IMG/VR virus record: IMGVR_UViG_3300017735_000010
Location: 1-53,930 of that record
Reading direction: 5' to 3' (one strand)
Origin: a virus
DNA length: 53,930 bases
The position numbers were made by a program, and so were the translations under genes. How positions within the stretch are numbered: position 1 is the stretch's first letter; each line of letters starts with the position of its first letter. The notes beneath the pieces were generated by a model that saw only the letters and a program-made list of their open reading frames with translations, was not told where the DNA came from and did not search any database. Positions 6,332 to 53,216 of this stretch are shown here, piece by piece.

Positions 6332-6550
6332 TTATATTTGGTCGTTATATTCTCCGTAAGATTCTAAATTTCTTAGTTCTAACATAACAACTTCTTTTAC
6401 GCCGTTATAATAAGGATCGAGAAAACAGTTATTTAGGATTTCATCGAATTCTGCTTTGTACTGATACGCTCTATTAAAGTAAATTTGAGCTGCTGCTTTA
6501 TATTGACCTTTTCTTATTTGGTCTAAAAAGTGTTGAATTGTTTGGTTCAT
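6332..6550 (-). CDS. Small helical protein, 72 aa
   Basis: First gene after the conserved element at 6588-6644 and therefore probably early. The sequence is helical, with a TPR-like look (KAAAQIYFNRAYQYKAEFDEI), but it is too short to call a repeat protein. No family is recognised. Confidence 0.6.
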   Translation of the reverse strand: MNQTIQHFLDQIRKGQYKAAAQIYFNRAYQYKAEFDEILNNCFLDPYYNGVKEVVMLELRNLESYGEYNDQI

Positions 6551-6587
6551 TTTGTGTGTTTTAAAGGTTATTATTAATTGTTAACTA

Positions 6588-6644
6588 CAGTATAAATATA
6601 ATCATTATAAACGACATAAAAAAATCTGGAGTGAATTATTTTCA
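6588..6644 (-). promoter_or_regulatory. Conserved early/middle promoter-like element, copy A
   Basis: The minus strand reads, in order, TGAAAATAATTCACTCCAGA, TTTTTTTATGTCGTTTATAA and TGATTATATTTATACTG. This matches eight other copies and is 38 bases from the ATG at 6550. This copy has ACTG in place of ACTATA at its end. Confidence 0.7.
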
Positions 6645-6651
6645 ATTATTT

Positions 6652-6798
6652 TTAGTTTAAAATTGTGTGAATTTGTAACTCATTTAATCTGTTAATAAAA
6701 TTAGGTACTGCTGTATGCCACCTCTTACCATATAAATTAATAGCATATTGCTTAATTTGTATTTTTTCATTTATTGACAATTGAGTGTACTGTTTCAT
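6652..6798 (-). CDS. Small hypothetical protein, 48 aa
   Basis: ATG at 6798, TAA at 6652. It begins MKQYTQLSINEKIQIKQYAI and is helical and basic. It ends just before the next conserved promoter element and starts five bases after the 104-aa gene, so it is the last gene of that short transcript. No family is recognised. Confidence 0.5.
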   Translation of the reverse strand: MKQYTQLSINEKIQIKQYAINLYGKRWHTAVPNFINRLNELQIHTILN

Positions 6799-6803
6799 AA
6801 TTT

Positions 6804-7118
6804 TTATTTTAATTTGCAAACATATAATGTAACGTAATTATATGAAAATGCTCTATGTGGTTCTTCAATAATACCAGCATTTATTAGTGCTGTAAGAATA
6901 CCTTCGTTCTCGCTATAGTTTTTTATTATAACATCATTCTCGTCGATATTGACCATCTCATGTTCTAAGGCTACAGATGCTGTGCAAAAAGTAAATCCAT
7001 CTTCTGAATCTACCAATCTTAGGCAGTTTTGACCGTTTGCGTACTTTTCTCTCCGTACTTCACAGATAGTTCCGGCGAATCCTAATGTTTGTGTTTTAAA
7101 TTCTTGTGTCATTTTCAT
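6804..7118 (-). CDS. Small conserved protein, 104 aa (DUF4313-like?)
   Basis: The segments KYANGQNCLRLVDSEDGFTF, IKNYSENEGILTALINAGII and a C-terminal VTLYVCKLK resemble a small family I associate with Bacteroidetes mobile elements and phages (KYANG...DYSENEG); the DUF number is from memory. The function is unknown. It is the first gene after element copy B. ATG at 7118 is used; a second ATG two codons on is also possible. Confidence 0.6.
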   Translation of the reverse strand: MKMTQEFKTQTLGFAGTICEVRREKYANGQNCLRLVDSEDGFTFCTASVALEHEMVNIDENDVIIKNYSENEGILTALINAGIIEEPHRAFSYNYVTLYVCKLK

Positions 7119-7140
7119 TGTTGTTGTTTTGATTAATTAA

Positions 7141-7200
7141 TTATAGTATAAATATAACAATAAAAAACGACATAAAAAAATCTGGAGTGAATTATTTTCA
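7141..7200 (-). promoter_or_regulatory. Conserved early/middle promoter-like element, copy B
   Basis: Full-length copy on the minus strand, including TTTTTTTATGTCGTTTTTTA and TTATATTTATACTATAA, 23 bases before the ATG at 7118. The leader TTAATTAATCAAAACAACA also occurs before copy G. Confidence 0.75.
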
Positions 7201-7229
7201 TCCAGATTTCAAAAAGTTTTCAAGAGTTT

Positions 7230-7847
7230 TTAAAATTCTATAACTCTTTCTTCCCCATCAGGGTATAATTTTAAAAAGTTCTTTGGTCTTCCGTATTTGC
7301 CAGCAAACCAGAACTTAGCATCATCTCCACTATAACTTTTTATGAATTTAAGTCCGTCCTCAGTTGGAGAGTCCCAAACAAGTGGCTCTTTATGGTCTTT
7401 TCTAATGGCATCTAACATTTTCTTATTAATGCTATTTCTCTTATAACCTGGTCTAGTACTCATCATTTCAATAATAAGATATCCTTCAGTTACCTGTCCC
7501 TCTATACAAGACCATATCATTTCTGAATTTTCAATTCTTTTATTATAACTCTTTTTCCAAATATCTGTGATAGGTGACGCCCCATATTGACTAAGACTTC
7601 CTCTCATCGGGTTAAACATCAAAATTCCAGCTTTACCTTCATCATATAAAGGTAACCATTTTTCATCATGAAAATATGCAAGTACCTTTCCAGCTGGAAA
7701 CATTATATTCTGTTTCTCATTAAAAAACACAGTGATGTTGTCATTTACTGCATCTAATGAAAGTGCTTTTAACGGAAGTCCTGTTGCAGTATCAACTAAA
7801 TGTTTTCCTTGCTTAGAAAAAGCTGCAAATTCTTTTAAATGCTTCAT
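7230..7847 (-). CDS. GNAT-like acetyltransferase candidate, 205 aa
   Basis: The central part has a GNAT look: a strand GYLIIEMMSTRPGYKRNSIN resembles the beta4 / acetyl-CoA loop region (R-x-G-x-x-R-x-S/G), followed by helix KKMLDAIRK and then PTEDGLKFIKSY. If correct, it would transfer an acetyl group from acetyl-CoA; the substrate is unknown. The N-terminus MKHLKEFAAFSKQG could be a targeting peptide. It overlaps the stop of the 76-aa gene at 7847. Confidence 0.5.
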   Translation of the reverse strand: MKHLKEFAAFSKQGKHLVDTATGLPLKALSLDAVNDNITVFFNEKQNIMFPAGKVLAYFHDEKWLPLYDEGKAGILMFNPMRGSLSQYGASPITDIWKKSYNKRIENSEMIWSCIEGQVTEGYLIIEMMSTRPGYKRNSINKKMLDAIRKDHKEPLVWDSPTEDGLKFIKSYSGDDAKFWFAGKYGRPKNFLKLYPDGEERVIEF

Positions 7848-10802: not shown

Positions 10803-10857
10803 ATATAGTATAAATATAATCATAATAAACGACAAATAAAAATCTGAGGGCATAAAA
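10803..10857 (-). promoter_or_regulatory. Conserved early/middle promoter-like element, copy C
   Basis: The minus strand carries GCCCTCAGATTTTTATTTGT, CGTTTATTATGAT and TATATTTATACTATATAA, 19 bases before the ATG of the CCA-adding enzyme. It directly follows a terminator hairpin. Confidence 0.7.
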
Positions 10858-21705: not shown

Positions 21706-22305
21706 TTAAATATTTTCTGCGATTAATACTTTACCTCTACGAATTCTGTTTTTAACAGTTTGAAGATTAACGTTGTGCTTATCTGCAATATCTTCATATT
21801 TCATGTTTTTGATAAGACGGTCTTCCATGATACCTTTATACATTGGCTTTAAATCATTGATTGCTTTAAGAGCTCCATAATACTGGTCCATGATTTCTTC
21901 ATCTTCCATAATAAAGTCTTCTTCAGTTTTTTGTTCAAAACTTGCAATTAGACCTGAGATAGAATCATTAACAACTCCACTGCTTGAAAGCTGAACTCCA
22001 GCATCTCTCATTCCATCTAGAGAAGACTTTTTGTTTCTTTCTCTAATATAAGCAAGAGACTCATTGAATGCAATTTTATATAACCAAGTTGTGATTTGCC
22101 ATTCTGGATTGTATTGGTCTATTTTAGTCCACAATTTTACTAGAGTATTAGAAAGTAAATCTTCAGCCACTTCGCTGTCTTTTACCATTTTGAATATGTA
22201 ATTCTTTAGACCTGGTTTAACTCTTAAATAGAGCTTGTTATAGTCTTTTTCTGTTCGTGTGTTGTAGAAGTTTTCTCCTAATTCTCTGTAAGTCGCTTGT
22301 TTCAT
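21706..22305 (-). CDS. Phage sigma factor, ECF-like (functional analogue of T4 gp55 suspected)
   Basis: Region 2 is seen at about 25-95: NYIFKMVKDSEVAEDLLSNT, LVKLWTKI and ITTWLYKIAFNESLAYIRER, the typical ECF core-binding and -10-melting helices. Region 4 is at about 140-199: DLKPMYKGIMEDRLI, then YEDIADKHNVNLQTVKNRIR, a helix-turn-helix. Length (199 aa) fits group 4 sigma factors. It would direct host RNA polymerase to phage promoters, probably the GATATATAA late set; that link is inference. The gene itself follows promoter element D. Confidence 0.88.
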   Translation of the reverse strand: MKQATYRELGENFYNTRTEKDYNKLYLRVKPGLKNYIFKMVKDSEVAEDLLSNTLVKLWTKIDQYNPEWQITTWLYKIAFNESLAYIRERNKKSSLDGMRDAGVQLSSSGVVNDSISGLIASFEQKTEEDFIMEDEEIMDQYYGALKAINDLKPMYKGIMEDRLIKNMKYEDIADKHNVNLQTVKNRIRRGKVLIAENI

Positions 22306-22323: not shown

Positions 22324-22383
22324 TTATAGTATAAATATAACAAAAATAAACGACATAAAAAAACTTTATGGCATTTATTTTCA
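22324..22383 (-). promoter_or_regulatory. Conserved early/middle promoter-like element, copy D
   Basis: The minus strand carries GAAAATAAATGCCATAAAGT, TTTTTTATGTCGTTTATTTT and TGTTATATTTATACTATAA, 19 bases before the sigma-factor ATG. Confidence 0.75.
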
Positions 22384-25929: not shown

Positions 25930-25958
25930 AAAAGCAGAGTGAATAGTTTCACTCTGCT
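25930..25958 (-). terminator. Terminator after the Nampt-like gene
   Basis: An 11-bp stem AGCAGAGTGAA/TTCACTCTGCT with a 4-base loop, followed on the minus strand by TTTATATT. It is 18 bases after the stop at 25976. Confidence 0.8.
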
Positions 25959-25975
25959 GTATTTATCTATGATTT

Positions 25976-27493
25976 TTATTTAACCAATTTAGGGTTTGTA
26001 ATTAAGTTAGAGATTTTATTTCTAACTTCAGTTAAGGTAGTTCTATTGTAGAATTTACCGTCTTTGAAGATAGTTTTCAATTCTCCTTCTGCTTCTGTTT
26101 TTCTAGAAACCATATCTCTTAGTTCTAGTTCTCCAGTTTCTGGGTTCTTACTTACATGTAATAAACCTTTTGCAGATTTTTTGGTTCCATCATCTGTGAT
26201 AGGGTCTTTAAAGATTTCTCTTCCTTTTCCTTCAACTTCAACATAGGTTGCTTTCATTGCGAAACCAAATGTATCTCTAGTGTTGTACTGATAAGTGTAA
26301 CTTCCAATACCTAGAACTACGTTTGTAGAAGCGAATCCTTTTCTAGCAAGTCTTTCAATAATTTGTCTTGCTCGATCTGGAGTAATACTATCTCCATAAA
26401 TTGCTCCAATATGCTGGTCTAAGACTTTGTAACCCTGTGAATTTGTGGTTCCTCCAAAGGTTTCCCATAAAAGTTCAATTAAACCTTTATTAGCAGGATG
26501 TGCATCACCCACAGTGATTGCCTTGCCCTTGAACTCGTCTGTCGTAAGAGAGTTATATCCACAAAGAATATCTACTGGGTCTCCACTGTCAGGTCGAATA
26601 ACTATTTTACCATCTCGACTCATGATTTCGTCTTTTAAAGTTGGTAAATAATCAGTGACTACTGTCCATAAGTCCCAAGTATCAGATACAATACTTAATA
26701 TTCCTGTTGGATAAGTCTCCATAAGTCTTCTAAAGGTTCCTAATTCATCTCCTTTAGTTCCAGCACACATTACTGAATGCTCTGTAGCGTTTACTGAACC
26801 GACGATAAAACCATCTTCATCATAGTAGTTTCTGGCTGCTGCAATAACTGGCAAAGAATCACTTCCACTAAATGCGGCAGCATGTCCTAGTCCACTTAAG
26901 ATGGTACTCATAAATCCTCCCATTCCTCTCATAGAAAAGTCATGTCCTTGGAAGTCTACGAAACCAATTGCATCTTTATCCGTTTTTAAAGCACCTTCAG
27001 TTAAAATTCGCTTATATAATAAAGCGATTGTTGCTGAAGTCATTGGTTGCCATAACATGTTAGAGAAAATAGTCTCTAAAAAGTTAGTCAACCATCCAAA
27101 GTTTCCAGTATTTTGCACTGTCAACATTGGAACTCTTAAAGGAACTTCAATTCCTTCTTCTATAGATTTCACTTCAATAGGAAGATAACCTAAATCGTGA
27201 AGTTCTTCAAAATGAGTTACATCATAGTCTGTATTTAAGTACATTGACAATTCAGTTTTCATTTGGCCACAAACTTCTTCTTTAGGCTGACTAAAAAAGT
27301 TTTCATTGAAATGGTCTACTAACCATTGAATTACCATTTGTTGTCCAAATGAAACAACTTTATCACAACCTCTCGGTGCGTACTTGTTTCCTCTTGGTGT
27401 CCAGTTGGAATAAACAGTGTTTGTTCCTTTTGGATATTGTTGATGGTGTCCTGTTTTGTAACCATCTGTTAAAAATAAGCTATTCATTTTCAT
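25976..27493 (-). CDS. nadV: Nicotinamide phosphoribosyltransferase family protein (NadV/Nampt or Namat)
   Basis: The 505-aa product has full-length Nampt architecture: N-terminal LTDGYKTGHHQQYPKGT at 9-25, FQGHDFSMRGMGG at 181-193 with the nicotinamide-selecting Asp185, ATEHSVMCAG at 236-245, IVSDTWDLW at 268-276 and IRPDSGDP at 299-306. Nampt makes NMN from nicotinamide and PRPP. Relatives called Namat instead use ADP-ribose-pyrophosphate to make NAD+ directly. The adjacent Prs-like gene (11 bases away) would supply either donor. It is transcribed from promoter element E and ended by a strong hairpin. Confidence 0.92.
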   Translation of the reverse strand: MKMNSLFLTDGYKTGHHQQYPKGTNTVYSNWTPRGNKYAPRGCDKVVSFGQQMVIQWLVDHFNENFFSQPKEEVCGQMKTELSMYLNTDYDVTHFEELHDLGYLPIEVKSIEEGIEVPLRVPMLTVQNTGNFGWLTNFLETIFSNMLWQPMTSATIALLYKRILTEGALKTDKDAIGFVDFQGHDFSMRGMGGFMSTILSGLGHAAAFSGSDSLPVIAAARNYYDEDGFIVGSVNATEHSVMCAGTKGDELGTFRRLMETYPTGILSIVSDTWDLWTVVTDYLPTLKDEIMSRDGKIVIRPDSGDPVDILCGYNSLTTDEFKGKAITVGDAHPANKGLIELLWETFGGTTNSQGYKVLDQHIGAIYGDSITPDRARQIIERLARKGFASTNVVLGIGSYTYQYNTRDTFGFAMKATYVEVEGKGREIFKDPITDDGTKKSAKGLLHVSKNPETGELELRDMVSRKTEAEGELKTIFKDGKFYNRTTLTEVRNKISNLITNPKLVK

Positions 27494-27504
27494 ATTATAT
27501 AGGT

Positions 27505-28362
27505 TTATTTGTTACAATTTATAATAGTAAGACTCTTTGATTCAAATTCACGAACAATAGAGTCTGTGGTGTATACATGGTCGACATGTTCGATCGGAAG
27601 ACCTTTAGTAAAGAGACCATGTGTTACTGCTAAAACTATTCTAGCATTTTCTTTTTCTTTTTTTATAACTTTAGCAAGTTCAAGGAAGGTTCTACCTCCA
27701 TCGCATATATCATCAAAGATAACATAGGTTGCGTTTGAGATATTTATGTCTTTCAGTCCTGAAATAGAAGTATGTGTTATTTGACCTTTAACATCTCTAT
27801 TTTTAGAGCCAATTACAAGATTTTCAATCTTTGTAGCTTTCTGAATTTTGAATACTTTTTTGAGAGCTCCTGCATCTGGAGATACAAGTACCACTGGGTA
27901 TTCCGATGTTGGGTAATATTGGTCTTTTACATCTTTTAAAACCTGATCAGCAAAATCAAGAGTATCGATTCCTTTGAAGTTATTAAGACACGCTTCTATT
28001 ACATCTGAATGTGGGTCTAAAACAGTAACTCTATCAAAGTTTTGACTGTTAATAATTGGACAAACTACTGTTTTTAAATAGTTTGAAGTTCCTTCTTCGA
28101 ATTTTCTATCACTTCTACCACCTAAGAAATATGGGGTATATAAACTGACTTTTTGAACTCCCATTTCTTTAAGGGCTTGGTTAGCACAGATTATTAATTC
28201 TAAATCTAGGAATGAAGTAAAAGGGCTTACAATTTCTACCTCTAAAACATCATGCTGAAATGCAAAATCTTCTATTTTAATAGATTGTTGACCATCTGGA
28301 AATTTATAAATTTCGTAGTCGATTCCTTTTTTTTGATTTGGGTATAAGTTGAGTTGTATCAT
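27505..28362 (-). CDS. prs: Ribose-phosphate pyrophosphokinase-like protein (Prs or Adps)
   Basis: Landmarks of the PRPP synthetase fold: FPDGQQ at 21-26, YTPYFLGGRSDRK at 75-87 (compare PYYGYARQDRK), DPHSD at 116-120, SPDAGALKK at 161-169 and the PRPP loop VIFDDICDGGRTF at 214-226. At 285 aa it is shorter than usual (about 310-320), and several positions differ from canonical Prs: DPHSD for DLHA and FDDICDGGRTF for VDDMIDTAGT. It either makes PRPP from ribose 5-phosphate or, as described for the phage enzyme Adps, pyrophosphorylates ADP-ribose. Confidence 0.9.
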   Translation of the reverse strand: MIQLNLYPNQKKGIDYEIYKFPDGQQSIKIEDFAFQHDVLEVEIVSPFTSFLDLELIICANQALKEMGVQKVSLYTPYFLGGRSDRKFEEGTSNYLKTVVCPIINSQNFDRVTVLDPHSDVIEACLNNFKGIDTLDFADQVLKDVKDQYYPTSEYPVVLVSPDAGALKKVFKIQKATKIENLVIGSKNRDVKGQITHTSISGLKDINISNATYVIFDDICDGGRTFLELAKVIKKEKENARIVLAVTHGLFTKGLPIEHVDHVYTTDSIVREFESKSLTIINCNK

Positions 28363-28373
28363 ATTGTTAATTT

Positions 28374-28434
28374 GTTATAGTATAAATATAAGAATAAAAA
28401 ACGACATAAAAAAATCTGAGGGCAATTATTTTCA
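28374..28434 (-). promoter_or_regulatory. Conserved early/middle promoter-like element, copy E
   Basis: The minus strand carries GAAAATAATTGCCCTCAGAT, TTTTTTATGTCGTTTTTTAT and TCTTATATTTATACTATAA, only 12 bases before the ATG of the Prs-like gene. Confidence 0.75.
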
Positions 28435-31156: not shown

Positions 31157-31216
31157 TTATAGTATAAATATAATCATTATAAACGACATAAAAAAATCTG
31201 GAGTGATTTATTTTCA
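31157..31216 (-). promoter_or_regulatory. Conserved early/middle promoter-like element, copy F
   Basis: The minus strand carries GAAAATAAATCACTCCAGAT, TTTTTTATGTCGTTTATAAT and GATTATATTTATACTATAA, 34 bases before the ligase ATG. Its leader (AATAATAACCTTTAAAA) is shared with copy A. Confidence 0.75.
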
Positions 31217-32973: not shown

Positions 32974-33030
32974 ATTATAGTATAAATATAACAATAATAA
33001 ACGACATAAAAAAATTCGGAGTGACTTTTT
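32974..33030 (-). promoter_or_regulatory. Conserved early/middle promoter-like element, copy G
   Basis: The minus strand carries GTCACTCCGAATTTTTTTAT, GTCGTTTATTATTG and TTATATTTATACTATAA, 22 bases before the ATG at 32952. This copy has CCGAAT where most have CCAGAT. Confidence 0.7.
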
Positions 33031-33766: not shown

Positions 33767-36700
33767 TTAAAAGCTGTTTCTTGTCTTTACAACAACCTGT
33801 CCACTTTCTAACAGGTCTATTAATTCCTGCATACTTCCTCCAGATGATGGAGCTGGTTCAGCAGGTCTCGGTGTTGGTTGACCTATAGGAGTTGCTTTAT
33901 TACTTGTTGCTTCAGCAAGTTTGCCCATTGCCTTACTTGCATCTCCAACTACGTTACCTACCTCCGAATTTGATTCTTTAGCAGCTTCTACGGTCGATTC
34001 AAAGTTAGCTATCATAGATGCAAGTTCTTTAACTGCTTCAATTAAACTATCACCAAGTGTTGCCATTGCGTCTTCTCCTCCTTGTTCAGTAAGATATGCA
34101 AGTGCTTTAAACATTTCTGTTGATTTTTCAAGAGCTTCTAGATCCATTCTTTGAGAAGTCTCTTGTATTTTACCATAAGATATTGCAATTGATCTAAAAT
34201 CTTTTGCAGTATCTGTTATTTTAGCGGCATGCATTATTTTTATCATTTTATTAATTCCAAAATGAGCAAATGGCCTTACTTCACCTATTTGAGTATATGC
34301 GTCTGCCATTCTTTGGAATGCATGTGCAGTTCTTCCTAATCTTTGGAATTTTAAAAGAGCTCCTAAGCCGTCAACACCATCTTTCCACGATCCTAAAAAG
34401 CCACGTACTGCTTTTCCTAAAAACATTATTTTAAATGCTCCTATTTTATTGAAACCTAAAAGGGCGTGTGCCATCTCTCCCATAGTATGTGCTGCAACTC
34501 TACCAAGTTTAACTACAGAAGGGTCCTCTACTATCTTTTTAATACCAGTAAATACATACATTAATGATACAGGTAAACCTTTTGCAAGATTCATACCTTT
34601 TGAAACATCACTTTTAGGAGGTCCAACTCTAAAGCCAAACATTGTATCATCTCCGCCATATTTCTTACCTATTCTACCAAATGCATCCATTGGGTAGTAA
34701 ATCATATCATAGATGTTTTTAGCTAATTTCTTTAAATTATCGCCTGCTAATGTTTTATATCCAGTTACTTTTTCCGGATTTGAAGGGTCATCATATTCAG
34801 GAAATTTAAGTTTAGCCATATACATATATCCTATTGCTATTGATGCAAGTCTCCTACCTAAATATTTTGCTGATGATATACCTTGACCAGCTGCTCCTGA
34901 TAGCCGTGAACCAAAAAGTCCTTTTGGTGGACCCATTGGATATTTCTTACCTATTCTACCAAATGCATCCATTGGATAATAAATCATCTGGAATATATTC
35001 TTAGCTACTTTCTTAGGAGCATCTCCTGTCATTGTGTCATAACCTACAATTCTTGTACCTTTATATCTAGGGAATTTCAATATGGCAAACCAGCTAATAC
35101 CTCTTGCAAGATTTCCTAGTACTCTACCTAAATATTTACCCTGTGCAATACCAGCACCTACATCACCTGTATTATTAATACCTAATTCTCCTAGGAGACC
35201 AGACGCTCTTTTGAAAGGATATTTCTTACCTATTCTACCAAAACCGTCCATAAGAGAAACGATCATGTTTACGATATTATCTGTAACCTTTTTCATACCT
35301 CCACTGGTTAAAGAAGTATACCCTACTAACTTTTTACCTTTATATTCCGGGAATTTAAGAGTTGAAAAGTCTTTTAAACCTTTACCAAGTTCTGATATTA
35401 CTCCTCCCATTCCGGATGCTTGCTTAACACCTTCACCAACTTTTCCATCTGGTGCGTATCTAGTAGCGCCCCACCAAGTTTTATATTTTCTTCTAGGGAA
35501 TCTTCTAGCAACATTACCAAAACCGGTAGCAAGTGATAAAATCATATCTACGATGTTTGCAGTTACTTTCTTAAGAACATTTCCTTTTGTTAAATCAATA
35601 TAGTCTACTATTTTAGTTCCCTTATATACTGGGAATTTAAGAGTTGAAAAGTCTTTTAAGCCCGCACCAATTCCAGCAACAACTCCACCCATACCAGAAG
35701 ATTGCTCGATACCAACACCTACCGGACCTGTAGTCGTATAAGTTGTACCAAAGAAGCCCTTGTGTTTTTTCTTTGGATATCTTCTACCTATTGTTGCAAA
35801 ACCTCCTGCTAAAGCAACAACCATCATAACTATATTGTCAGTTACTTTTTTAAGTACATCTCCTTTGGTTAAATCAATTGTCTCTGTTATTTTCTCAGGT
35901 TTTGAAGGGTCATCATATTTATGAAATTTAAGAGTTGAAAAGGATTTCATACCTTCGGCAATTCCACCAAGTGCAGAACCCATACCGGAAACAGATTGAA
36001 TACCTGTTTTTACAGGGTTGTCAGTTCCTCCTAAGAAACCCCATAAACCTGATTTTGGTTTATTAGGAAACATTCTACCCACTCTACCAAATGCGCCTGC
36101 TAGACTTTCTACCATCATAGCAACATTTGCTGAAATTTTATTCATAGCACCCTTGTCAACTGTTATATACTCAGTTATTTTTCCAGGGTCATTAGGGTCT
36201 CCATAAGTTGGGAATCTAAGTACTGAAACGGCTTTCATACCTTTTGCGATACTTGTTAAAGCGTCTCCCATTCCCATTGTTGATTGAATACCATCATATA
36301 AAGCACCGGCTCCTAAACCAAAGAAACCAGCACCTCCGTATTTTCTACCAATTCTACCAAATGCACCTGCTATAGACTCTACCATAACAGAAATATTTTT
36401 GGCTACTTTTTTATCGATTTTGTGCTTCATGAAGTCGGCAATACCCTTACCTATTTTTATTAAGGAATGACCTACGACAACCATTGCTGCAGCTCCAGCT
36501 CCAATATTTATAGAACCGAAACCGAATTTGAATGCTTCTCCTAATGAATTAATTAAAAGTTGAATATTTGTTTGGGCAGTTGCACCTATTCCCATGAAAC
36601 CTCCTGATTTTGGGTTTCCTTTAGTGGAAATCATCTCTCTCCAACCATTTCCCTTAAATATAGGCATCATTGCTTTTATACCTTTTGCTATTGGCCACAA

Positions 36701-38584
36701 TGCTAAACCAGCAGCACCTAATGCTACGGACCCTGCTAGAATCATACCAGAGTTTAATGGGTTCCATCTAAAACTATAACCAACTGATTCCATTAAAGTT
36801 TGAAAATTAGATACTGGTCCCGCTCCCATTCCTAAAAAACCTTTAGATTGGTGGTGAGTACCTATCATTGATTTCCATTCTGAGCCTTTAAATATTGGAA
36901 TAAAGCCTTCAAGTCCAAAAGATACTGATTTCAATGCTAATCCAGTAGCTCCCATTGCGGCTGCTCCTAAAAGTATGAGTGCAGATGCGAAACCCCAACC
37001 TGCTGCCATAACTCCCATTCCAACAAGAAATACTCCAAGTTCAGCCATAAACATCCAAGGATCTCCAGTACTATTTAAGGCTTCTGCCATTGATCCGACT
37101 CCCCATCCCATAACTGCAAGTGCTAGTCCAGTACCTGCAAGTACTAATGCACCTTTTCCTATAGTCTTCCATTGCTTACCATAACCCCACATTATTACAC
37201 CTAAACCTACAAGGGCTACTCCTAGCTGAGCCATAAACTCCCAAGGGTTTGCAGGTAATGCTGCTTCGAATTTTTTAAGTGCGTATGCTAATATGATGAT
37301 TGCTATCCCTGTCAATGCTAAACCTATTGCTCCCTTTTTTATACCTTTGCTAAATTTACCAACAATCCACATTGCAAATGCAAGACCTACAAGTACTAGC
37401 ATTGTAAATCCTAAAGTTTTGAAAGTTTCTTTTGTTGGTGGAAAAAGAAGTCCAAAAATAAATAAAGCGGCTCCCAATATTAATATGGCTATACCTAGCT
37501 TTTTTAATGCTTTAGCACCTTTATTCACTGATTTTGTAAATTTTAATTTATCTAAAACAAAAAACAATAAAGCAAATCCTAATATTACACCCATTATAAT
37601 TGGTATTGACTTAAGTGCGTATTGATATACGAACCCACTTAGAACTATAGCAACACCAAATAAAAGTATTCCTATTCCTACATCTCTTAAATCCTTGAAC
37701 TTTTCTAAACTTTTCTTATTTACTAAGAACCCTATTAAAGTAAGGGCAATCAACATTATGGCTAGTGTTCCTATTATAGATTTTAACGAATTGAATGCCA
37801 TTGGATATACATATCCTGAAAGAAGTAATAAACCTCCAAATAAAAGTATTCCTATTCCTACATCTCTTAAACCTGTAAATTTTTCTAAACTCTTCTTACT
37901 TGTTAAACCACCTATTATAGTAAGGGCGACCATTGTTATTAATAGTGTTGGTATTATAACAACTAAGGCTAATAACGCAAACGGATATACAAGTCCTGCA
38001 AGTGCTAAAGTAACACCGAAAAGTAGTATTGATGTTCCAACTTTCCCTAAAAGAGTTAGAGCTTCCATAGTAATTTTTGCTGTAGCTGCAAACGGGGCTA
38101 ACATTGACATTATTACCATCATTCCCACTAACATGAGCCCAACAAGTGGAACTGCTATCATACCAGTTATAAGGAAGGGTAACGCAAGTGTTAGTAGAAT
38201 AGCAAATTTAAGAATTTTAGGTGCTATACCCATTACGGCTTCAATACCCATGGAAATACCTTCCATTCTCTCCTTAACTTCTTTACCAGAAGTTGTCATT
38301 TTATCTATAACTTCGGCGATACCGCCTAGACCTTTACCTACTGCTTGAAGACCTTTTTCACCAAGTATCTTCCAAGCAATTGCTTCTTTAATTGTTAAAC
38401 CTGCAAATAAACTTACTTTTGTTTCAGCCTCGTCTTTTACTTGACGTTGTTCTGTACCTTGAAGCTGCTTTAGAATTTCTTCAAATATGCTGAACAGCTC
38501 TCCTCCTGGGGAAAGCTGTTCAACTATTACTTTTTGATTATCTCCTGATAATTTCTCAAATGGAGATGCGAATGGTTTTGCCAA
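33767..38584 (-). CDS. Tail tape measure protein, 1605 aa, with membrane segments and internal repeats
   Basis: The start is a TTG at 38584, supported by a late motif 19 bases upstream and no nearby ATG. Residues 1-115 are soluble, about 115-550 hold many hydrophobic segments (for example FAILLTLALPFLITGMIAVP), and about 700-1400 contain repeats built on LKDFSTLKFPxYKG, then KKVTxNIVxMI and GFGRIGKKYP. The end is helical, then Pro/Ser-rich. Size, hydrophobic core, repeats and position after the sheath/tube and gp26/51-like genes identify a tape measure. It sets tail length and probably enters the host envelope. Confidence 0.85.
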   Translation of the reverse strand: MAKPFASPFEKLSGDNQKVIVEQLSPGGELFSIFEEILKQLQGTEQRQVKDEAETKVSLFAGLTIKEAIAWKILGEKGLQAVGKGLGGIAEVIDKMTTSGKEVKERMEGISMGIEAVMGIAPKILKFAILLTLALPFLITGMIAVPLVGLMLVGMMVIMSMLAPFAATAKITMEALTLLGKVGTSILLFGVTLALAGLVYPFALLALVVIIPTLLITMVALTIIGGLTSKKSLEKFTGLRDVGIGILLFGGLLLLSGYVYPMAFNSLKSIIGTLAIMLIALTLIGFLVNKKSLEKFKDLRDVGIGILLFGVAIVLSGFVYQYALKSIPIIMGVILGFALLFFVLDKLKFTKSVNKGAKALKKLGIAILILGAALFIFGLLFPPTKETFKTLGFTMLVLVGLAFAMWIVGKFSKGIKKGAIGLALTGIAIIILAYALKKFEAALPANPWEFMAQLGVALVGLGVIMWGYGKQWKTIGKGALVLAGTGLALAVMGWGVGSMAEALNSTGDPWMFMAELGVFLVGMGVMAAGWGFASALILLGAAAMGATGLALKSVSFGLEGFIPIFKGSEWKSMIGTHHQSKGFLGMGAGPVSNFQTLMESVGYSFRWNPLNSGMILAGSVALGAAGLALWPIAKGIKAMMPIFKGNGWREMISTKGNPKSGGFMGIGATAQTNIQLLINSLGEAFKFGFGSINIGAGAAAMVVVGHSLIKIGKGIADFMKHKIDKKVAKNISVMVESIAGAFGRIGRKYGGAGFFGLGAGALYDGIQSTMGMGDALTSIAKGMKAVSVLRFPTYGDPNDPGKITEYITVDKGAMNKISANVAMMVESLAGAFGRVGRMFPNKPKSGLWGFLGGTDNPVKTGIQSVSGMGSALGGIAEGMKSFSTLKFHKYDDPSKPEKITETIDLTKGDVLKKVTDNIVMMVVALAGGFATIGRRYPKKKHKGFFGTTYTTTGPVGVGIEQSSGMGGVVAGIGAGLKDFSTLKFPVYKGTKIVDYIDLTKGNVLKKVTANIVDMILSLATGFGNVARRFPRRKYKTWWGATRYAPDGKVGEGVKQASGMGGVISELGKGLKDFSTLKFPEYKGKKLVGYTSLTSGGMKKVTDNIVNMIVSLMDGFGRIGKKYPFKRASGLLGELGINNTGDVGAGIAQGKYLGRVLGNLARGISWFAILKFPRYKGTRIVGYDTMTGDAPKKVAKNIFQMIYYPMDAFGRIGKKYPMGPPKGLFGSRLSGAAGQGISSAKYLGRRLASIAIGYMYMAKLKFPEYDDPSNPEKVTGYKTLAGDNLKKLAKNIYDMIYYPMDAFGRIGKKYGGDDTMFGFRVGPPKSDVSKGMNLAKGLPVSLMYVFTGIKKIVEDPSVVKLGRVAAHTMGEMAHALLGFNKIGAFKIMFLGKAVRGFLGSWKDGVDGLGALLKFQRLGRTAHAFQRMADAYTQIGEVRPFAHFGINKMIKIMHAAKITDTAKDFRSIAISYGKIQETSQRMDLEALEKSTEMFKALAYLTEQGGEDAMATLGDSLIEAVKELASMIANFESTVEAAKESNSEVGNVVGDASKAMGKLAEATSNKATPIGQPTPRPAEPAPSSGGSMQELIDLLESGQVVVKTRNSF

Positions 38585-52510: not shown

Positions 52511-52572
52511 GTTATAGTATAAATATAAGAATAAAAAACGACATAAAAAAATCTGGTGTGACTTTTTTTAAA
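52511..52572 (-). promoter_or_regulatory. Conserved early/middle promoter-like element, copy H
   Basis: The minus strand carries AAAAAAAGTCACACCAGATT, TTTTTATGTCGTTTTTTATT and CTTATATTTATACTATAA, 19 bases before the ATG at 52492. It could drive the whole block down to the gp62-like gene. Confidence 0.75.
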
Positions 52573-53156: not shown

Positions 53157-53216
53157 TATAGTATAAATATAAGAATAAAAAACGACATAAAAAAATCTGG
53201 TGGCAATTATTTTCAA
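53157..53216 (-). promoter_or_regulatory. Conserved early/middle promoter-like element, copy I
   Basis: The minus strand carries GAAAATAATTGCCACCAGAT, TTTTTTATGTCGTTTTTTAT and TCTTATATTTATACTATA, 21 bases before the ATG at 53136. It lies between divergent genes. Confidence 0.75.

Follow-up and report, generated by a model that had tools for sequence, protein, structure and literature searches.

A predicted NARP1 gene pair in an uncultivated phage

The stretch of DNA analysed here, which we refer to as the window, is the 53,930-base virus record IMGVR_UViG_3300017735_000010 of IMG/VR, and is perhaps a fragment. It carries on one strand a gene for a 285-residue relative of Prs (protein P0001) followed by a gene for a 505-residue relative of Nampt (P0002), both beginning with ATG and separated by an 11-nucleotide spacer (27494-27504). 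One copy of a repeated promoter-like element precedes the Prs-like gene, no copy lies between the two genes, and a single intrinsic-terminator-like hairpin follows the Nampt-like gene (Table 1). Gene lengths, spacing, common upstream element and single terminator all agree with a preliminary description of the locus made from the sequence alone, the promoter role of the element being suggested by where its copies stand. That description read the pair as a possible NARP1 module, in which an ADP-ribose pyrophosphate synthetase (Adps, a Prs relative) and a nicotinamide ADP-ribose transferase (Namat, a Nampt relative) rebuild NAD+, and the comparisons that follow support this reading.

The family assignments of both proteins hold. 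P0002 matches the Pfam families NAPRTase (2e-37) and NAMPT_N (6e-8) as well as phrog_448 (6e-191), and its ranking of solved structures in the Protein Data Bank (PDB) is led by the Namat of Bacillus phage SPbetaL1 (9W5X/9W5W, 515 bits), ahead of 9KE8 (420 bits), the bacterial Nampt 7YQO, presumably from Xanthomonas (216 bits), and human Nampt 6E68 (191 bits). P0002 and SPbetaL1 Namat are 50.6% identical over 496 aligned columns by BLAST and 53% identical over 468 in the multiple alignment, and identity to 7YQO is 34%. The second-best solved relative, 9KE8/9KEO, is labelled Nampt and has a near-Namat helix, GAQTYQRNTRD.

Twenty NAD+-contacting residues of SPbetaL1 Namat are named in PMC12774641. 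Seventeen of the twenty are identical in P0002, which also retains the catalytic histidine; the three changes (F392 to Tyr, A362 to Ser, and R40 to Lys followed by Tyr) are substitutions that occur in the clade. The selectivity clamp of Namat is described as a helix with the signature GSX-Phi-X-Phi-X-Phi-TRD together with a loop that supplies an adenine-stacking residue, which is Arg or else, where Lys/Tyr stands in its place, the residue after it (PMC12774641). The P0002 helix GSYTYQYNTRD (residues 397-407) matches this signature, whereas it is missing, with both helix aromatics, from all seven clampless references (7YQO together with six phage Nampts), most of which have instead the GGxLLQ-like helix of canonical Nampt (NadV). 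In the P0002 clamp loop, ..RGNKYAPRG.., K37 aligns with SPbetaL1 R40 and Y38 stands next to it, in a region of variable length where the alignment is less sure. The placement of P0002 with Namat does not depend on the clamp: in a quick tree without bootstrap built after removal of the clamp columns (53 hand-chosen rows of 97 dereplicated), the SH-like approximate likelihood ratio test (SH-aLRT) gives 100 for the split between Namat and Nampt, and P0002 falls inside Namat.

P0001 matches phrog_619 (1e-57) and PDB Prs chains from 3e-13, with both of its Pfam matches under the gathering scores. An AlphaFold2 model from a 27-sequence alignment has a mean pLDDT (predicted local distance difference test) of 91.0, and a Foldseek search with it returns Prs structures as top matches (for E. 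coli Prs, E 9e-18 with 21% identity), so that P0001 has a Prs fold. Its motifs differ from those of the four Bacteroidota housekeeping Prs that served, with PDB alignments, as a small control set: P0001 reads DPHSD where all four have DLHA, and DDICDGGRTF where they have DDMVDTAGTL (DDICDTANTL in one), the loop ending in TL in each. In the PDB alignments E. coli Prs 4S2U has DLHA and DTGGTL and the Prs chain 4TWB has EPHK and STGGTI; because of the latter the DLHA motif is not universal in Prs. SPbetaL1 Adps (L210) shares the motif changes of P0001 in its EPHSD and ..GGTF, and its loop, DDLSSFGGTF, is without DGG.

The 100 viral and 80 bacterial loci compared here were retrieved through their resemblance to P0001 or P0002 (the best 80 for the P0002 viral and bacterial sets), and their clamp type is therefore partly built in. 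The count of partners in the same stretch leaves out the window and L001, collapses identical Namat C-termini to give 175 distinct loci, and takes as Prs-like any phmmer match to P0001 at E 1e-4, some of which are weak. The loop closes with TF or SF in each of the 125 Prs-like proteins that share a stretch with a distinct clamp-type Namat; PHS is present in 116 of them and DGG in 117. The preliminary description had pointed to DPHSD and FDDICDGGRTF as marks of a changed Prs; both are present, and PHS and TF recur in SPbetaL1 Adps, but neither DGG, which is missing from SPbetaL1 Adps and from eight of the 125, nor proline-histidine alone, which 4TWB has as well (PHS being absent in nine of the 125), serves as a diagnostic mark of Adps. 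The corresponding loop of Prs lies near the sugar phosphate and holds its 5'-phosphate. The loop of P0001 may have been remodelled to accept the ADP side of ADP-ribose, which is the predicted substrate. In trees of hand-chosen rows P0001 stands apart from the housekeeping Prs, which were the chosen root, with an SH-aLRT of 100 (four such Prs in the 57-row tree, three in a 51-row tree).

The partner genes of other phages are in keeping with this division. Sixteen phage references were hand-picked, with annotations in view, among the matches listed of 1,937 (fourteen of them) and of 1,384 (L196 and L197). A Prs-like gene lies in the stretch of all ten clamp-type loci and of none of the six clampless ones; eight of eight is the fairer count for the clamp type, because L196 and L197 were picked by a Prs-like match. 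When whole records are considered, Prs is matched in none of the six clampless phages (0/6) and a cytidylyltransferase-like gene is present in all of them (6/6); among the named clamp-type phages, which are these ten plus SPbetaL1, one of eleven has such a gene. Of the best 80 viral loci by P0002, the stretch includes a Prs-like gene in 57; it lacks one in 15 loci with a short flank and in eight with full flanks, and all eight of the latter carry an Adps elsewhere on the same contig. Further points of comparison would be the tested enzymes of phage DyoEdafos and the Namat of Bas63, a relative of wV8; neither phage is among the 60 matches listed of 1,423 or the 60 listed of 254.

A second feature raised in the preliminary description was that no nicotinamide mononucleotide (NMN) adenylyltransferase is visible. 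With E values up to 1 admitted, neither the cytidylyltransferase-like family PF01467 nor PF00293 (NUDIX) is matched in the 53,930-base record, a possible fragment; PF01467 is likewise absent from the three sister contigs (0/3), whose records may also be fragments. These absences are weak evidence because the record may be a fragment of the virus, and lack of the enzyme fails as a diagnostic mark: PF01467, a broad superfamily, is matched in 11 of 14 large clamp-type contigs, set against the one in eleven among the named phages.

We conclude that the window pair is very probably a NARP1 module with the predicted chemistry ADP-ribose plus nicotinamide to NAD+, and its standing as a further example of a known system, here in an uncultivated phage, is well supported. 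In the proposed scheme Adps would use ATP to pyrophosphorylate the distal ribose of ADP-ribose at its free 1-position, yielding ADP-ribose pyrophosphate (ADPR-PP), and Namat would then combine ADPR-PP with nicotinamide to form NAD+ in one step, without an NMN adenylyltransferase. Both inputs are leftovers of TIR, SIR2 and SEFIR NADase defences, and the phage could therefore undo NAD+ depletion and continue replicating. This mechanism is established for the SPbetaL1 and Paenibacillus proteins, and both of these NARP1 systems counter NAD+-depleting systems in E. coli (PMC12774641); the enzymes of phage DyoEdafos produced NAD+ in vitro (PMC13232231). For the window, catalysis by the pair and its expression are predictions, and an anti-defence role in this phage is plausible but less sure than the chemistry.

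Similar pairs are found in bacteria. The best 80 bacterial Namats, all from Bacteroidota, are 60-69% identical to P0002 and have the clamp in every case (80/80); they come from assembled genomes that include metagenome bins and are not necessarily all chromosomal, and the scan reaches close relatives only. One group of 53 loci, mostly Flavobacteriaceae (L102-L154), has an Adps-like gene in all 53 stretches and an NrtR-like match in 46, a NUDIX domain with an NrtR winged helix being confirmed in the three loci of the group that were scanned. Some of these stretches add Macro (4), Tpt1 (8) or ADP-ribosylglycohydrolase (5) genes. The other 27 loci, mostly Aquimarina (L155-L181), have an Adps-like gene in two stretches and Tpt1-like genes in 16; the genome of one (L180) has a Prs-like gene with DDICDGGGTF elsewhere (L202). 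NrtR-type regulators sense ADP-ribose (PMC9503650). Since bacterial NARP1 has already been reported (PMC12774641), only the link to NrtR might be new, and a narrow literature search found no paper making it.

Several observations weigh against the NARP1 reading or parts of it. P0001 is only 31% identical to SPbetaL1 Adps over 205 residues (60.5 bits), set against 22-23% and 50-55 bits for housekeeping Prs, and SPbetaL1 Adps forms, with that of a Staphylococcus phage, its own deep branch next to the canonical-Prs root. Thus the Adps label of P0001 rests mainly on its partner and motifs, because identity to SPbetaL1 Adps is low and the bit scores are close. SPbetaL1 Namat itself also turns phosphoribosyl pyrophosphate (PRPP) into NMN in vitro (PMC12774641). 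Some PF01467 match occurs, as noted, in most of the large Namat-bearing IMG/VR contigs, and L085, a 125 kb IMG/VR contig with the closest Adps outside the sister contigs (69%), has directly behind its Adps-Namat pair a gene (6448-7515) for a 355-residue fusion of a DnaA C-terminal DNA-binding domain with a cytidylyltransferase domain that is NadD-like by eye. Finally, NAD+ drops during infection by PaP1, a phage related to Adele, despite the presence of these genes (PMC12846349), and for this reason an advantage in vivo cannot be taken for granted.

The drop of NAD+ in PaP1 infection also lends something to the closest competitor, that the NARP1 chemistry is mainly a metabolic aid which recycles ADP-ribose from phage or host NAD+ turnover. 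This overlaps the favoured reading and differs in purpose alone, and the occurrence of clamp-type enzymes beside NrtR-type regulators in most loci of the Flavobacteriaceae-rich group hints at such a housekeeping use. The protection that SPbetaL1 and Paenibacillus NARP1 give in E. coli argues the other way, and we consider a chiefly metabolic purpose somewhat unlikely, if worth keeping in view.

Ordinary nicotinamide salvage, in which the Prs-like protein would make PRPP, the Nampt-like protein NMN, and a host adenylyltransferase would complete NAD+, is improbable. The two proteins are indeed members of the Prs and Nampt superfamilies, SPbetaL1 Namat does use PRPP, and bacteria have adenylyltransferases of the superfamily, PF01467 being matched in 14 of 14 control genomes. 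However, P0002 possesses the adenine clamp and is placed within Namat by the tree, the six sampled clampless phage Nampts go with a cytidylyltransferase-like gene and never with Prs, and P0001 departs from the four housekeeping Prs at both DLHA and DTxxTL. That the pair is decaying or inactive is highly improbable, as we found no point in its support and the frames are open, P0002 keeps its catalytic and nearly all of its ligand residues with only clade substitutions at the others, all three sister contigs retain both genes, and neither the promoter-like element nor the terminator is disrupted.

With the NARP1 reading preferred, the histories of the two halves can be compared. The window Namat groups weakly with bacterial Namats (SH-aLRT 45 in the 53-row tree and 81 in a tree of 32 hand-chosen rows), and the window Adps stands among those of other phages (99 in the 57-row and 97 in the 32-row tree). 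In approximately unbiased (AU) tests on the 32 rows, with both groups chosen once earlier trees had been seen, a single clade of phages is rejected by the Namat data (p-AU 0.003), but the Adps data do not reject the Namat grouping when it is forced on them (p-AU 0.098). Re-pairing of the Adps and Namat halves is thus no more than suggested. A tentative extension is that Bacteroidota phages and bacteria share an exchangeable toolkit for turning ADP-ribose into NAD+, which in bacteria would be an NrtR-controlled housekeeping operon and in phages would join a Namat of the same lineage to a phage-specific Adps, re-paired rather than co-inherited.

The element upstream of the pair, TTTTTATGTCGTTTNNTATNNTTATATTTATACT, is 34 nucleotides long and has nine copies in the window within three mismatches (the worst has two), all on the minus strand and standing before nine predicted genes, where shuffles expect 0.00. 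Other copies precede genes for a sigma factor (start 22305), a DNA ligase (start 31123) and a tRNA nucleotidyltransferase (start 10784). A 29-nucleotide core recurs exactly at the window locus and at those of the three sister contigs, and no exact copy lies in the remaining 203 loci. Going by its places the element is presumably a promoter, and the Adps and Namat genes are probably transcribed together from this phage-wide signal. The sigma factor of RNA polymerase is encoded at 21706-22305 (phrog_1740, 8e-20), behind an element copy of its own, and a self-driven regulon is possible.

Table 1. Features of the predicted NARP1 locus and positions of the repeated element in the window
Feature	Position	Strand	Remark
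Adps-like gene P0001 (Prs relative, 285 aa)	27505..28362	-	predicted ADP-ribose pyrophosphate synthetase
Namat-like gene P0002 (Nampt relative, 505 aa)	25976..27493	-	predicted nicotinamide ADP-ribose transferase
Codons of Namat selectivity-clamp helix GSYTYQYNTRD, residues 397-407	26273..26305	-	motif per PMC12774641
Codons of DPHSD, Adps residues 116-120	28003..28017	-	DLHA in four Bacteroidota housekeeping Prs compared
Codons of FDDICDGGRTF, Adps residues 216-226	27685..27717	-	housekeeping Prs: DDMVDTAGTL (3), DDICDTANTL (1)
Promoter-like element 5' of the pair	28379..28412	-	one of nine window copies
Intrinsic-terminator-like hairpin just past Namat gene	25933..25958	-	11 bp stem, T-rich tail
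Promoter-like element copies	6589-6622, 7145-7178, 10807-10840, 22328-22361, 28379-28412, 31161-31194, 32979-33012, 52516-52549, 53160-53193	-	

The phage is a myovirus going by its tail-sheath gene, and large-terminase and clamp-loader genes are also present. The cellular Namats nearest to its own are those of Bacteroidota, mostly Flavobacteriaceae, both among the best 80 bacterial loci and in the 53-row tree. Shine-Dalgarno-like strings stand within 22 nucleotides upstream of just nine of 77 minus-strand gene starts in a crude list, and such scarcity would fit a Bacteroidota host. An open frame of 1605 codons' worth of amino acids (33767-38584) has no PHROGs match. No close isolated relative was detected by megablast of window positions 20000-44000 against 50,697 phage records, and defence-system models run against ten window proteins matched nothing except for a weak phosphoribosyltransferase (PRTase) hit to P0001.

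With this pair NARP1 extends to uncultivated phages for which the closest Namats of cellular origin come from Bacteroidota, chiefly Flavobacteriaceae, in whose genomes clamp-type Namats adjoin ADP-ribose-linked genes. The analysis also supplies an aligned set of Adps proteins with their motif differences from Prs, useful because PMC12774641 (January 2026) calls the Adps structure unresolved. As a kind of system the locus is ordinary; it is moderately useful for the sequence diversity of Adps and for the purpose of bacterial NARP1, whose role the link to NrtR-type regulators makes directly testable.

Among known systems is the phage type with Nampt and an adenylyltransferase (VH1_2019, RB43, CcrSwift, BcepSaruman, SCTP-2 and Colwellia phage 9A), which goes by the name NARP2; it shares the Nampt catalytic core with the window, but it is clampless and has a cytidylyltransferase-like gene in place of any Prs match in the record. 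The Pakpunavirus type, as in Pseudomonas phage YS35, resembles the window in its clamp-type Namat and in an Adps with DDICDGGATF, and differs in having a small gene between Adps and Namat and in being distant in sequence; the pair of phage Adele, of this type, is called NARP1 in print (PMC12846349). The Bacteroidota pairs, for example those of Cellulophaga, Maribacter and Tenacibaculum, have the same clamp and Namats 60-69% identical to that of the window (best 80), but in the 53 loci the order is Namat then Adps, an NrtR-type regulator usually adjoins, and the Adps comes from a different branch, in which HPHS and DLADGGRTF prevail. SPbetaL1 NARP1 has, like the window, Adps then Namat on one strand, a Namat that is half identical, carries the clamp motif and differs at few ligand residues, and an Adps with xPHS and ..TF; its Adps is 31% identical over 205 residues and has an SFGG loop where that of the window has DGG. 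The window for its part is distinguished from SPbetaL1 by the 11-nucleotide gap between its genes, its phage-specific promoter-like element, and a clamp-loop stacking residue of the Lys/Tyr type rather than Arg.

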